Below, piece after piece: positions 53,047-57,564 of a stretch of 64,000 nt of DNA. A model generated the notes under the pieces. That model was not told the DNA's origin and ran no database searches. It saw only the letters and a program-made list of their open reading frames with translations. A program made the translations under genes and the position numbers. Origin of the DNA: Corallococcus sp. EGB. Lineage in GTDB: Bacteria; Myxococcota; Myxococcia; Myxococcales; Myxococcaceae. Location of the stretch: positions 4,464,001 through 4,528,000 of the forward strand of contig NZ_CP079946.1 of assembly GCF_019968905.1 (NCBI RefSeq), read 5' to 3'. How positions within the stretch are numbered: the stretch's first letter is position 1; each line of letters begins with the position of its first letter.

Positions 53047-54093
53047 ATGCGCATCCCTCTCCTTGTGCGGCGAGCGGGCCCGCTCCTCGCGGTGCTCCTC
53101 CTGGCCGCGTGCCGCATCGAATCCGCCGCGCCGTCGGGAGGCGCCGCCGTGGCGCAGTCCGAGACGCCGTCCGGCGAGGTGTGGGTCTACACATCGATGT
53201 ACCGGCACGTGCTGGATGCGCTGGAGCCATTGCTCAAGGAGCGGCTGCCGGGCGTGCAGGTGCGCTGGTACCAGGCGGGCAGTGAGAAGGTGGCGAGCCG
53301 GCTGGAGGCGGAGCGCGCCGCGGGTGCGGTGCGCGCGGACGTGCTGATGACGTCGGACCCGTTTCTCTACGAGCGGTTGGCGCGGGACGGCGCGTTCCTC
53401 CGCTATGCATCCATGAACTCGCTGCGCATCCCGCGCACGCTCCTGGACCTGGACGCGAGGTACGCGGCGGTGCGGTTGTCCACGATGGTGCTGGTGCACC
53501 GGGTGGGCGCGGGCGAGGCGCCCAAGTCATTCGCCGCGTTGGCGGATGGCAGCTGGAAGGGCAGGGTGGCCATCGGGGATCCGCTCACGTCGGGCACCGC
53601 GTTCACATGGGCGGTGTTCCTGCAAGCGAAGCACGGGGCGGCGTATTTCGAGGGGCTGAGGCAGAGAGGCGCGGTGGTGGCGGGAGGCAACGCGGCGGTG
53701 CTCCAGAAGGTGGAGAGCGGCGAGGTGGACGCGGGCGTGCTGCTCCTGGAGAACGCGTTGGCGGCGAAGGCGAAGGGGAGCCCCATCGAGATCCTCTGGC
53801 CGGAGGACGGCGCGGTGGTCATCCCGGGCCCGGCGGGACTGTTCGCATCGACGCGCAATCCGGTGGCGGCGAAGGCATTGGTGGATGTGCTGCTGTCGCC
53901 CGAGGGTCAACGCATCATCGTGGAGAGGGGAGACATGCACGCGGTGGACCCGCGCTTGGGTGGCCCGCGTGGAGAACCCGGCCTGGACGGGTTGATGGAC
54001 CGGGCGCAGGCCTGGACGCCGCAGCTCCTGGAGAAGGGGCTGCTGCACGGCGGCGACATCAAGGAATCGTTCAGCCGGGCCTTCGCGCGATGA
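53047..54093 (+). CDS. Iron(III)-type ABC transporter substrate-binding lipoprotein (FbpA-like)
   Basis: 348 residues. Lipoprotein signal (PLLAVLLLAACRIESA, lipobox Cys about 20), then a two-lobe binding protein with GEVWVYTSMYRHVLDALEPL near the N-terminus, ADVLMTSDPFLYERLARDG, and IGDPLTSGTAFTWAVFLQ. Relatives bind ferric iron, 2-aminoethylphosphonate, thiamine or polyamines; the permease and ATPase are FbpB/FbpC-like, so iron is the first guess. The stop sits in an ATGA overlap with the next reading frame, which covers the palindrome array. It is divergent from the aldo/keto reductase. Confidence 0.9.
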   Translation: MRIPLLVRRAGPLLAVLLLAACRIESAAPSGGAAVAQSETPSGEVWVYTSMYRHVLDALEPLLKERLPGVQVRWYQAGSEKVASRLEAERAAGAVRADVLMTSDPFLYERLARDGAFLRYASMNSLRIPRTLLDLDARYAAVRLSTMVLVHRVGAGEAPKSFAALADGSWKGRVAIGDPLTSGTAFTWAVFLQAKHGAAYFEGLRQRGAVVAGGNAAVLQKVESGEVDAGVLLLENALAAKAKGSPIEILWPEDGAVVIPGPAGLFASTRNPVAAKALVDVLLSPEGQRIIVERGDMHAVDPRLGGPRGEPGLDGLMDRAQAWTPQLLEKGLLHGGDIKESFSRAFAR

Positions 54094-54875
54094 GCCAGGA
54101 ACGCGAGACCCGCAGTGGCGACGCGGCGTGGCAATCAAAGCGGACTGGGGCCCACGGTTCCCGGACCTCCATGAGGCCCCCCTCCGGACCGGCGCGCTCT
54201 AAACCTGTCCGACAGTCGGACAAGTGGCGGCAGTCCCAACCCGTCCAACAGTCCGACAGGTCGCCGCGCAGCCCCGAACCCGTCCGACAGTCGGACAGGT
54301 TTCCGTGGCCAGGTGACGCGGCCAGTCCCATGCGAATCATCCGCAGGGGAGCATCAGCCCAGGAGGACCGCCGCAGGGCCTCGAACCTGTCGGACCATCG
54401 GGCCGGTTCCGGCCGTGGTCCGAACACAGGTCCAAGTGGAGGTCCCGGCCTGCCCGGCGATTGGACCCATTCGCACCGAAAGCCCGTCCTGTCCCGCTGT
54501 AGGACCGGTTCATGCGGTGGCGTTGACCTGTCAGACAGTCGGACGGGTTCGTGCGGTGACGGCGGCTTGTCGGACAGTCGGACCAGTTCAAGCGCTAGTC
54601 CACGCCTAGCCGGCGAACGGACCCAGTCCCACTGGAAGCCCGACCTGTCCGACTGTCGGACCGGTTCATTCGACGGCGGCGGCTTGTCGGACAGTCAGAC
54701 CGGTTCGTGCGGTGATGCGGACTTGTCCGACTGTCGGACAGGTTTTTTGGGTGCGCCTCCGCCGGGGAGCCCTCGCGGGATTCTCCCTTTCTCATCCGGT
54801 TGGACGGAGTGCATCTCCGTGGGCCTGGTGCACTGCGGGTGTCTTCGCTCGAGCCTTGATGGAGTCGTGCGATGA
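54090..54875 (+). CDS. Possible repeat-encoded protein between binding protein and permease
   Basis: A continuous frame of 261 codons. It begins with ATG inside the stop of the binding-protein gene (ATGA) and ends with TGA inside the permease start (ATGA), as a translationally coupled gene would. Its product is low-complexity: PVRQSD copies first, then copies of LSDCRTGSCG every 13 residues. Against it: the palindromes are read in one frame in the first three units and in another later on; the repeat gives LSD(C/S)RTG on both strands; third-position G/C bias is weaker than in neighbours; and no family is recognised. It may be only an inserted repeat segment. Confidence 0.33.
   Translation: MSQERETRSGDAAWQSKRTGAHGSRTSMRPPSGPARSKPVRQSDKWRQSQPVQQSDRSPRSPEPVRQSDRFPWPGDAASPMRIIRRGASAQEDRRRASNLSDHRAGSGRGPNTGPSGGPGLPGDWTHSHRKPVLSRCRTGSCGGVDLSDSRTGSCGDGGLSDSRTSSSASPRLAGERTQSHWKPDLSDCRTGSFDGGGLSDSQTGSCGDADLSDCRTGFLGAPPPGSPRGILPFSSGWTECISVGLVHCGCLRSSLDGVVR
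54205..54761. repeat. Array of palindromic repeats, GTCCGAC-W-GTCGGAC type
   Basis: At least nine clear copies of a palindrome close to TGTCCGAC-A/T-GTCGGACA, centred at 54214, 54250, 54289, 54396, 54498, 54537, 54576, 54654, 54693 and 54732, with further degenerate copies at 54459 and 54615. The eight units from 54450 to 54761 are on an exact 39-bp period. They form two blocks of four (156 bp); the first three units of each block agree at 91 of 117 positions by hand count. Every unit can form a hairpin in RNA of either strand. The array fills most of the space between two genes of one transporter operon. Confidence 0.9.
54724..54748 (+). terminator. Terminator-like last unit of the palindrome array
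   Basis: The final repeat unit, TGTCCGA-CTG-TCGGACA, is followed by GG and six T. A 7-bp stem plus T-run makes a passable intrinsic terminator on the plus strand, 124 nt upstream of the permease. It would reduce read-through from the binding-protein gene. Confidence 0.45.
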
Positions 54876-56530
54876 AGGGCCGGTGGATTGCATTGGCCTT
54901 GTGGCTTGTGCCGCTGCTGCTGTTCGCGGTGGTCCCGGTCGTGGCGCTGCTGGTGCGGGGCGTGGGGGCGGCGACCGAGGGACTGGGCCCGGTGCTTGCT
55001 TCGGAGGCCGGCGCGTTCGTGAACACGCTGGGGATTTCCCTGGGCGCGACGGCTTGGGCGTTGTGCCTGGGGGCCCCGCTGGCATTCCTGTTGTTCCGCA
55101 CGGACCTGCCCCTGCGTGGCGCGTTCACCGTGCTCTTCACACTGCCCTCCGCCATTCCCGCGTTCATCTGGGGCATGGGATGGCTGTCGCTCGCGAGCCC
55201 TCGCGCCGGATACTTGAACCGCATGCTGGGCGCGGAGGTGTTCAACCTCTATGGCGCCGCGGGCATCGCGTTCGTGGAGGGGCTGTCGGGATTGCCGCTG
55301 GTGCTGCTCGCGGGCGCCGCGGCGCTGCGGCGCGTGGATCCCGCGCTGGAGGAGGCCGCCCGCGTCTGTGGCGCTTCGCCGCTTCGCGCCGTGCTGAACA
55401 CCTCGGTGCCCCTGGTGCTGCCCGCGCTACTGTCGGGCGCGGTGATGGTGTTCCTCATGGCCGCGTCTTCGTTCGGCGTGCCCTACCTGCTCGGCGTGTC
55501 TGCTTCGCCGCCCACCCGCGTTCTCACCACGCGCATCTATGAACTGGTGCTGCTGGGCAGCGAGGAGGGATTGCCTCGTGCGGCGGTGCTCGCGTCGTTC
55601 CTCCTGCTGCTCACCCCGCTGGCGTTGGGGCTGACCTGGATGCTCGGCCGGAGCGGCAGGGTTCGCCTCAGCGCGGGCAAGGGCGTGTCGCCGCGGGTGC
55701 TCGCGCTGGGGCGCTGGCGAGTCTGGGCGCTCGTGGGCGTGGGGGGCACCGGTGGAGTGCTGGTGGTCCTGCCCCTGGTGGCAATCCTGCTGACGTCGCT
55801 GCAACGCAGCTTCGGCGCCTCGCTGTCGTGGGACTCGTTGACGCTGGCGCACTGGTCCGGTGTGCTTTGGGACTCGCGCACGTTACGGGCCACGGGGCGC
55901 AGCGTGATGCTCGCGGCGGGGGCGGGCCTGTGCGTCGTGGGGCTGGGACTTTCGGCTGCGCTGCTGCGACGGGCCTTCCGTCGAGGCGGCGCCGGCGTGG
56001 GGGCGATGGCGGTGTGGCCCTTCGCAGTGCCGGGCACGGTGCTGGCGCTCGCGTTGTTGGTGGCATTCTCCCGGGACTGGCGGCTGGTGGTCCTGGACCG
56101 CGTGGCATTCGTGCTGGCCCTGGCACACACCCCTTGGTTGATGCTCGTGGGCTATGTGGGGAAGTACCTGGCCCTGGGCGAACGCAACAGCTCCGAGGCT
56201 TTGGCCCAGGTGGATCCGTCCCTCGCGGAGGCCGCTCGCGTTGGCGGTGCCGGGCCTGCGCGGGCGTTCGTGGATGCGACGCTGCCGCTGCTGCGGCCGG
56301 CGCTCGTGGTGGCATTCGTGCTCACGTTCCTCGCTTGTGCCACGGAGATCACCCTCTCCGTGCTCCTGGTGCCCGCGGGCTCCGAGGTCCTGGGCACGTT
56401 GCTGTTCGAATTGCAGAGCTACGCGGATCCGGCCGCCGCCGCTGTGCTCGCGTGCGCGTTCGTGGCGCTGGTGGTGGCTGGACAGGCCGTGCTGGCGTGG
56501 GCTCGGCGTCGAGTGCCGGAGGTGCGGTGA
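54872..56530 (+). CDS. Iron-type ABC transporter permease (FbpB-like, duplicated)
   Basis: 552-residue membrane protein made of two permease halves (~1-265 and ~290-550), each with about six helices and an EAA loop: LEEAARVCGASPLRAVLNTS and LAEAARVGGAGPARAFVDAT. This fused architecture is typical of SfuB/FbpB ferric-iron permeases. The first helix is ALALWLVPLLLFAVVPVVAL. The ATG overlaps the stop of the preceding frame (ATGA) and its stop overlaps the ATPase start. Codon use is typical of the genome, unlike the region just upstream. Confidence 0.92.
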   Translation: MKGRWIALALWLVPLLLFAVVPVVALLVRGVGAATEGLGPVLASEAGAFVNTLGISLGATAWALCLGAPLAFLLFRTDLPLRGAFTVLFTLPSAIPAFIWGMGWLSLASPRAGYLNRMLGAEVFNLYGAAGIAFVEGLSGLPLVLLAGAAALRRVDPALEEAARVCGASPLRAVLNTSVPLVLPALLSGAVMVFLMAASSFGVPYLLGVSASPPTRVLTTRIYELVLLGSEEGLPRAAVLASFLLLLTPLALGLTWMLGRSGRVRLSAGKGVSPRVLALGRWRVWALVGVGGTGGVLVVLPLVAILLTSLQRSFGASLSWDSLTLAHWSGVLWDSRTLRATGRSVMLAAGAGLCVVGLGLSAALLRRAFRRGGAGVGAMAVWPFAVPGTVLALALLVAFSRDWRLVVLDRVAFVLALAHTPWLMLVGYVGKYLALGERNSSEALAQVDPSLAEAARVGGAGPARAFVDATLPLLRPALVVAFVLTFLACATEITLSVLLVPAGSEVLGTLLFELQSYADPAAAAVLACAFVALVVAGQAVLAWARRRVPEVR

Positions 56531-57564
56531 TGGCGGCCATCGTCCTGGAGGGACTGGTCAAGGCGTATGGCGCAACGCCCGTGGTGCGCGGCCTGAGCCT
56601 GCAGGTGGAGCAGGGCGAGTTCGTGTCGCTGCTGGGGCCTTCGGGCTGCGGGAAGACGACGACGCTGCGGATGCTCGCGGGACTGGAGCATCCGGACGCG
56701 GGCGTCATCCGACTGGCGGACGAAGTGGTCGCCGGCCCCGGCGTGCGCGTTCCCCCGGAGAAGCGCGGCCTGGGCATGGTCTTCCAGAGCTACGCCATCT
56801 GGCCGCATCGCAGCGTCGAGGCGAACGTCGCCTATCCCCTGGTGCTCCGGAAGGTACCTCGCCACGAGGTGGCAACCCGCGTGCGCGAAGCGCTGCGCTG
56901 GGTGCGGCTGGAGGCCTATGCGGCGCGAATGCCGCATGAGCTGTCCGGTGGACAGCTGCAACGCGTGGCGCTCGCGCGGGCGCTGGTGGCGGGTCCTCGC
57001 GTGCTGCTCTTGGACGAGCCCCTGTCGAACCTGGACGCTGCCCTGCGCGAGGAGCTGCGCGCGGAGATCGCCGCGCTGCGCGCCCGCCTGGGCACGACGC
57101 TCGTCTTCGTCACGCACGACCAGGGCGAGGCGCTGGCGCTGTCGGACCGCATCGCGGTGATGAACCGGGGCGTCATCGAACAGGTGGACACTCCGGAGCG
57201 GCTCTACCGCGAGCCCGCGACGCCGTTCGTCGCGGGGTTCGTCGGCGGCGCGAACGTGCTGCGGGGGGAGACCCGGGGTGGCGCCTTTCACTGCTCTGGG
57301 ACGGAGCTCTTGTTCGACCTGCCCTTGCAGGCGAAGCCCGGACCGGGAACGCTCGTCGTGCGCCCGGAGGACCTGGAGCTGGGTGCGACAGGAACGCCGC
57401 TGGTGCTCTCCGCCCGCCTGTTCCTGGGGCACGCCGCGGAGTACCGCTTCCCGGTCGGAGACGCTTTCCTGCGCGTCATCGGACCGGCGCTCGACGGTGT
57501 GCGCGCAGGGCAGACGCTCCGTGTCCGGGTGCGCAAGGCCACGGTCTTCGACGCGGGCCCTTGA
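56530..57564 (+). CDS. Iron-type ABC transporter ATP-binding protein (FbpC-like)
   Basis: 344 residues. ATPase domain with Walker A LLGPSGCGKTTTLRML, Q-loop GMVFQSYAIWPHRSV, signature LSGGQLQRVALARALV, Walker B VLLLDEPLSNLD and switch His in FVTHDQGEAL. The C-terminal ~100 residues (GPGTLVVRPEDLELG) form a TOBE-like regulatory domain, as in FbpC/PotA. It starts inside the permease stop (TGATG). Together with the binding protein and permease it completes an importer; the substrate remains inferred. Confidence 0.94.
   Translation: MAAIVLEGLVKAYGATPVVRGLSLQVEQGEFVSLLGPSGCGKTTTLRMLAGLEHPDAGVIRLADEVVAGPGVRVPPEKRGLGMVFQSYAIWPHRSVEANVAYPLVLRKVPRHEVATRVREALRWVRLEAYAARMPHELSGGQLQRVALARALVAGPRVLLLDEPLSNLDAALREELRAEIAALRARLGTTLVFVTHDQGEALALSDRIAVMNRGVIEQVDTPERLYREPATPFVAGFVGGANVLRGETRGGAFHCSGTELLFDLPLQAKPGPGTLVVRPEDLELGATGTPLVLSARLFLGHAAEYRFPVGDAFLRVIGPALDGVRAGQTLRVRVRKATVFDAGP

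Follow-up and report, generated by a model that had tools for sequence, protein, structure and literature searches.

A palindrome array at an ABC transporter gene junction of Corallococcus lies in an open, apparently translated frame joined by ATGA overlaps to both neighbouring genes

The transporter junction and its counterparts in relatives

The window (the whole stretch of DNA analysed here, 64,000 nucleotides of the Corallococcus sp. EGB genome) carries an ABC transporter operon in which genes for a substrate-binding protein, a fused-domain permease and an ATPase lie on the same strand (Table 1). The first-pass annotation had called the transporter iron-type. The ABC transporter part of this assignment stood, but the iron part was a guess at the family level: the best NCBIfam matches were to 2-aminoethylphosphonate transporter models, all under the cut-off, and a ferric model was present only further down the match list of the ATPase.

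Table 1. Features of the transporter junction and of two further bridge ORFs (positions in the window unless marked as genome positions)
Feature	Position	Strand	Remarks
ABC transporter substrate-binding protein gene, 348 aa	53047-54093	+	TGA stop at 54091-54093; PF13531, E = 9.8e-26
GCGATGA, left copy	54087-54093	+	putative ancestral stop/start overlap; target-duplication-like; compared with empty sites
Bridge ORF, 261 codons	54090-54875	+	4-nt overlap with each neighbour; no Pfam match
Array block 1, three units	54202-54300	+	spacing 36 and 39 nt; read as VRQSD / VQQSD
Degenerate unit	54384-54407	+	repeat comparison at ≥65% identity
Degenerate unit	54486-54509	+	repeat comparison at ≥65% identity
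Array block 2, five units	54525-54743	+	spacing 39, 78, 39 and 39 nt; read as LSDSRTG-type peptides
Last palindrome, then six T	54720-54749	+	shape of an intrinsic terminator; no call by the consensus terminator scan
Conserved one-sided element arm, GATGAGAAAGGGAGAATCC	54778-54796	-	common to 16 of 54 clusters
GGAG	54861-54864	+	possible permease Shine-Dalgarno sequence inside the bridge ORF (putative assignment)
GCGATGA, right copy	54869-54875	+	includes the ATG of the permease gene and the stop of the bridge ORF
Fused-domain ABC permease gene, 552 aa	54872-56530	+	PF00528, two stretches
ABC ATPase gene	56527-57564	+	PF00005; called start gives a 4-nt overlap with the permease stop
L046 bridge ORF, 325 codons	1786834-1787811 (genome)	-	4-nt overlaps at both ends
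L047 bridge ORF, 85 codons	1842772-1843029 (genome)	-	4-nt overlaps at both ends

Palindromes form an array at 54202-54743, downstream of the binding-protein gene (stop at 54093) and upstream of the permease gene (start at 54872); this bears out the array noticed in the first-pass annotation. Ten 24-nt units were recognised at an identity of at least 65%; eight differ from GTCSGACWGTCSGAC at no more than one position, and five of the eight are identical to it. Allowing up to two mismatches, we counted 10 matches to GTCSGACWGTCSGAC in the whole window, 8 of which are in the array; the expected number was 1.09, and none of 100 shuffles reached 10. The copies are not in strict tandem as had been described; they form two unevenly spaced blocks, of three and five units, around two degenerate units.

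The whole interval is covered by one open frame (hereafter the bridge ORF), whose ATG overlaps the stop codon of the binding-protein gene and whose TGA overlaps the ATG of the permease gene. The array repeats are read in two frames within it. Shine-Dalgarno-like sequences lie upstream of the permease gene, and its start could be independent of upstream translation.

We compared this junction with its counterparts in relatives. A first survey gave 30 permease loci, 28 with the binding-protein gene, 21 of them from other genera. At all 21 the upstream stop lay within an ATGA, with projected gaps of -1 to 17 nt in the same phase, and at none was GTCSGAC or an array present at the junction. GTCSGAC was likewise absent between the two genes at all 29 further loci outside Corallococcus that had both, some of them possibly from the same species as the first 21. 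Projected gaps were -16 to 14 nt at 24 of the 29; the exceptions were a locus with a start that could not be projected (L116), three with gaps of 38-44 nt (L127, L129 and L130) and one with a palindrome-free gap of 226 nt (L134).

Within Corallococcus, the junction was empty in G025, CA053C, C. llansteffanensis, C. terminator and the MAG PMG_225, and C. exercitus had an exact -4 overlap; C. sicarius showed another rearrangement, with palindromes absent. Complete array-bearing inserts were present in six genomes (G000, G028, G018, G029, G016 and G022). The insert of G017 was cut by the contig end, and the contig of G020 began inside the permease gene. The six complete inserts measured 344, 413, 626, 782, 893 and 980 nt, every length being 2 mod 3, and in all six the frame from the upstream ATGA was open to the permease ATGA, giving bridge ORFs of 115 to 327 codons. 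A small tree built from permease DNA placed C. exercitus as sister to the filled G016 (support 0.94; several deeper branches 0.23-0.73), so a clean loss or exchange of the insert is likely.

Repeated ATGA-containing flanks of 4 to 10 bp were found at the insert ends, several genomes having only 4 to 6 bp. The longest was CGCGCGATGA (10 bp, G016 and G022), and a flank repeat at a second site, GAGGCATGA, measured 9 bp in G020. Such flanks suggest a target duplication; they could instead have been kept by selection for coupling and not made by insertion.

The palindrome family and its possible roles

Arrays of the palindrome recur across Corallococcus, so the repeat family proposed in the first-pass annotation was confirmed. 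The pattern GTCBGACWGTCVGAC occurs at 197 sites in the Corallococcus sp. EGB genome (9.43 Mb, one contig) and the reversed control at none. In a search of 195 Myxococcota genomes, the exact core GTCCGACAGTCGGAC was found in 23, all of one family: 16 of 16 Corallococcus genomes, five of six from a second genus and one from each of two others. Its copy number ranged from 3 to 157 per genome among the 16 Corallococcus genomes. In drafts, counts of copies are probably underestimates, since the ends of some Corallococcus contigs (L011, L106 and others) fall within this array or close to it. Where the genome of the window has one palindrome (L035), G018 has an array of eight units at the corresponding position (L203), which indicates rapid change of copy number.

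The Corallococcus palindromic element documented here is thus abundant. Among the titles and abstracts listed in literature searches, with subscription journals thinly covered, none described it, and the palindrome string appeared only in work on a diatom. Viral contigs gave no exact match to one 21-bp palindrome. Rfam covariance models gave no match at the gathering score in 6 sources, and three weak matches below it.

Most single copies take the form AAAACCTGTCCGACAGTCGGACAGGTTTT and are flanked by GC-rich sequence. Arrays are usually framed by AAAACCT and AGGTTTT, one at each end; their spacers are specific to each array, and most of their periods are close to 38, 50, 58 or 70 nt. A conserved arm, GATGAGAAAGAGAGAATCC, was present at one end only in 16 of 54 clusters, including that of the window, and at both ends in none. 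Copies of the second genus (20 read) share the core but have other arms, mostly CAACTG/CAGTTG.

Our cluster survey of at least 53 clusters took in 50 regions of the genome and the window, with thinner coverage beyond about 8.3 Mb. Among the 53 clusters listed, 26 lay between co-directional genes, 15 between convergent and 8 between divergent genes, and 4 in a gene or at an edge. Most were intergenic; four were placed in genes (L044, L056, L060 and L064) and three in bridge ORFs. L064 was grouped with the 26 co-directional clusters, yet its sequence places it inside an NRPS gene. An in-gene copy without the family arms (L038) is probably a chance match. In the second-genus genome G002, 11 of 19 copies had convergent neighbours, one had divergent neighbours and one lay in a called gene.

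Several copies are accommodated inside genes. One NRPS gene (L060) holds 13 units spaced by 57 or 60 nt, giving repeats of mostly 19 residues (EPVGQSDRF...), and the 3145 codons retrieved from it are free of internal stops; the ortholog in G025 lacks the 13-unit array and has about 60 nt at that place. In NRPS adenylation domains at L060:1321-10755 and near position 4969 of L064, the palindrome sits in the same linker just before NLAYVIYTSG, and one of these two linkers has grown to 13 units. A 2254-aa protein carries two units 72 nt apart. Among 13 orthologs of a monooxygenase (L044), the exact core was present in five, a one-base variant in one and no copy in seven, and the orthologs without the palindrome had the same local length. 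That single coding copies are insertions was rejected for this enzyme: since local length is unchanged, native codons were replaced. In L044:4700-6292 and the orthologs L173-L185, codon replacement in part of the genus points to conversion-like spread. Comparison of other arrays with empty sites of G025 revealed no clear duplication, because the flanks had diverged, and orthologs of L072 were too rearranged for such a comparison.

An IS4-family transposase gene (L053:5746-7086, with ends CTGAAG.ATCCCCTCAT) is located within a palindrome array, and the same IS end adjoins the array in L059, so an IS4-type element may favour arrays. The IS was considered as a mobiliser of the arrays and rejected: the element between the two L053 arrays had inserted into one of them and is therefore a passenger there. 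A CRISPR array was rejected as well; in the arrays viewed, the spacers resemble one another and the repeats vary. MITEs, including SPRITE, a terminator-like MITE according to a review (PMC10969869), resemble the element in being small, dispersed and gene-free, in the 4-10 bp repeated flanks seen here at stop/start sites and in A/T tracts beside the stem. They differ in that the Corallococcus element has one conserved arm (one arm motif was searched), single-ended in those clusters that carry it, and in that no parent transposase was found, the one IS examined being itself inserted into an array.

To see whether the palindrome is conserved as DNA or as an RNA stem, we examined 276 units of this genome; they were chosen by the pattern GTC-S-GAC, so their fixed bases are partly fixed by the selection of units. 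At the variable pair (bases 4 and 12), C-G was found in 154 units, G-G in 60 and C-C in 41, and the Watson-Crick share was 0.56 against 0.62 expected. This lack of covariation favours recognition of GTC-S-GAC as DNA over an RNA stem. Pointing the other way, the arms differ between genera yet remain complementary, and one of the 20 second-genus copies has a compensatory two-sided change, although their fold otherwise showed nearly no covariation. One single copy was kept in G018 although its flanks had diverged. The central base also tracks the genome half: among 53 clusters of G000, A:T was 22:7 in the first half and 6:17 in the second, with one tie (P = 6e-4, with the position of the replication origin assumed). 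A DNA-binding role of the palindrome is possible, and would be compatible with a translated bridge. The wider explanation, that the palindrome is a site for a regulator or chromosome organiser and that its placement in the operon is incidental, draws on the conserved half-site with its variable base on each side, on arms that stay palindromic between genera, on the single copy kept in G018 and on the pattern of the central base, but leaves the open frames unexplained and has to accommodate the wide range of copy number within the genus; we regard it as rather unlikely.

Less probable still is an untranslated REP-like array, a reading considered in the first-pass annotation. On this view, hairpins in the mRNA would shield the transcript of the binding-protein gene or cause partial termination, so that the permease would be made in smaller amount than the binding protein. 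The folded array is indeed far more stable than shuffles (z -9.9), six T follow the last palindrome, and copies elsewhere are mostly intergenic, largely between convergent genes in G002. But the terminator consensus scan called no site inside the array, its sole nearby call being on the minus strand at 54140-54155, and the variable pair does not covary; the supposed spacer is one open frame, ATGA-joined to both genes in six of six inserts. The element is like REP/BIME in its many palindromes, often intergenic and clustered. Membership in that class was rejected: the RAYT gene (Y1_Tnp, PF01797) was found in none of the 16 Corallococcus genomes, with five of 14 control genomes positive, and copies lie also in genes and bridge ORFs. 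The palindrome sequence presumably differs from that of E. coli REP.

Open frame and peptide at the bridge junctions

We asked how often frames through such repeats are open, excluding any frame shut trivially by the upstream stop. Against the six of six open bridge frames at the transporter junction, 4 of 24 remaining frames of the same inserts were open (P = 3.5e-4), as were 24 of 150 frames in 25 non-coding array segments of this genome (P = 3e-5). Unit spacings were divisible by 3 in 39 of 43 cases at this junction (seven genomes, among them G017 with its cut insert), compared with 67 of 192 for non-coding arrays. Since units arise by duplication, spacings are not independent, and the multiple-of-3 spacing is support rather than proof. 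The six genomes probably share one ancestral insertion and are thus not six independent events.

The 26 co-directional clusters listed were scanned for 4-nt overlaps at both ends, and two more double-overlap bridges, L046 and L047, were found (Table 1). The genes around L047 resemble what we take to be 5-oxoprolinase subunits. At the L047 site, the frame reached the downstream start in all six palindromic inserts, four ending at the ATGA and two stopping 6 nt before the start; eight other genomes had a plain overlap and two had short palindrome-free bridges. At the L046 site, the downstream start was reached in three of six readable palindromic inserts (one frame ended at the ATGA, and two ended 7 nt upstream of the start); the other three (G019, G022 and G018) had a 22-codon frame ending about 290-324 nt short, and G029 was left out, its upstream gene being off the contig. 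Two further genomes were empty at this site, and seven had palindrome-free inserts or gaps of 10-256 nt, four of them ending exactly at the overlap. The palindromes are read in three frames in the L046 bridge and in two, frame 1 included, in that of L047; spacings were multiples of 3 in 2 of 10 cases at L046 and 0 of 1 at L047. With the three sites pooled, frame 0 reached the downstream start in 15 of 18 inserts and frame 2 in 7 of 18 (P = 0.015).

At the same stop/start overlaps, L230, L232 and L246-L249 have non-palindromic inserts with open bridges of 5 to 87 codons. Such bridges in other Corallococcus indicate that this repeat may not be the only source of bridge ORFs.

Might a stop-poor, GC-rich repeat with duplicated ATGA ends simply stay open without selection? 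The base rate of open frames, about 16-17% for non-bridge frames of the inserts as well as for non-coding array segments, and the half of readable inserts that are not open at L046 are what chance would allow. The complete sets of open inserts at the transporter junction and at L047, despite insert lengths that differ among genomes, speak against it, as do the low P values at the former, albeit from non-independent genomes. We consider chance a poor explanation.

Selection on the encoded peptide was assessed from dN/dS. Beside the array (three genomes before it and four after it, nine pairs from four genomes in all), values ranged from 0.31 to 1.7, whereas the permease, with similar dS, gave 0.07-0.10 (six pairs). 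The bridge was not gene-like in its codon usage, scoring -0.04 to -0.37 per codon, compared with +0.51 to +0.66 for the permease. By these measures the open frame is conserved more than the peptide, and the amino acids beside the array appear almost free to evolve. The first-pass annotation had named a translated, conserved protein repeat as the finding that would count against it; the repeat is apparently translated, but its peptide shows little conservation. A true small gene, encoding a repeat peptide (KPVRQSDRF / LSDSRTG) with a transporter function of its own, would account for the retained frame, for the Arg-keeping G in 36 of 37 frame-2 units (the base whose change gives Arg to Pro) and for the low dN/dS of the N-terminal stretch in some pairs, but is the least probable of the explanations, given that most dN/dS values are near or above 0.5, that length is so variable, that the repeats are read in two frames here and three at L046, that the ORF is cleanly absent in C. 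exercitus and other genera, and that no Pfam family matches.

A proposed origin and role of the bridge ORFs

The explanation we favour, with a probability of about 65%, is that the repeat entered a stop/start overlap and that the insert persists as a translated bridge keeping the binding-protein and permease genes coupled. From sequence comparison we infer translation of the bridge, coupling as the property under selection, a single ancestral insertion and transposition with target duplication. In an ancestor of a Corallococcus subgroup, the palindromic element would have entered the 4-nt ATGA overlap of the two genes and duplicated a short ATGA-containing target, so that the insert would begin and end with ATGA; the palindrome would then have multiplied in tandem. 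Ribosomes finishing the binding-protein gene would restart on the bridge ATG and cross the palindromes, thereby opening the strong hairpins as well as the last unit with its terminator shape; at the second ATGA they would terminate and begin again on the permease gene. Selection would keep the frame open so that the genes stay coupled, while the peptide would matter little.

In reporter experiments with E. coli and Haloferax, gaps of about 20-38 nt are described as nearly abolishing termination-reinitiation, and -4 as the commonest spacing (PMC10666635); the same article also cites studies with a longer reach of reinitiation, so the gap limit is not beyond dispute. If reinitiation is nearly lost at such gaps, the permease should become uncoupled when an insert of 344-980 nt goes untranslated, but not when a bridge with two -4 junctions fills the gap. 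Both bridge ends have this -4 spacing in the six complete inserts, as in ATGA coupling in general (PMC10666635); what differs is that the middle cistron in Corallococcus is a repeat array with a hardly conserved peptide. As the first-pass annotation had supposed, the position of the array could allow an effect on the ratio of binding protein to permease. Each added junction may lower permease output, which makes a stoichiometry effect plausible, and termination-reinitiation would be a more likely route to it than stabilisation of the mRNA.

More tentatively, and at somewhat less than even odds, the family may use stop/start overlaps as safe landing sites. With the ATGA duplicated, each insert would form a separate cistron, growth in tandem would be tolerated while the frame is open, recombination between the ATGA flanks would remove the insert cleanly, and bridge ORFs would form a distinct coding class and a source of new operon genes. 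The idea of clean removal draws on C. exercitus, which is empty and sister to a filled genome.

The nearest known kind, by analogy, appears to be the coding palindromes of Rickettsia. These RPEs are described as elements of 100-150 bp, some of which lie in preexisting ORFs without loss of frame (PMC3767692, PMC10969869). Like the palindromic elements of Rickettsia and Wolbachia, the Corallococcus palindromes are short, dispersed through a genus (compare the 197 pattern sites and the empty reversed control), and found both in intergenic regions and in frame inside genes. Compared by description, they differ in being a 29-bp palindrome in tandem arrays, in having stop/start overlaps as their striking sites and, in one enzyme, in having replaced native codons with length unchanged.

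Repeats in operons are usually treated as untranslated hairpins. Among the titles and abstracts listed on coupling together with repeats or mobile elements, again with thin coverage of subscription journals, none described such bridges. Coding palindromes being already known, our comparisons suggest that what is new is the keeping of palindrome arrays as apparently translated bridges at stop/start overlaps. If this is true, it would show how coupled operons tolerate insertions, offer a natural test of coupling relayed via an extra cistron and provide a way for new genes to arise within operons; what is annotated as a 'hypothetical protein' between two coupled genes may then be a repeat bridge.
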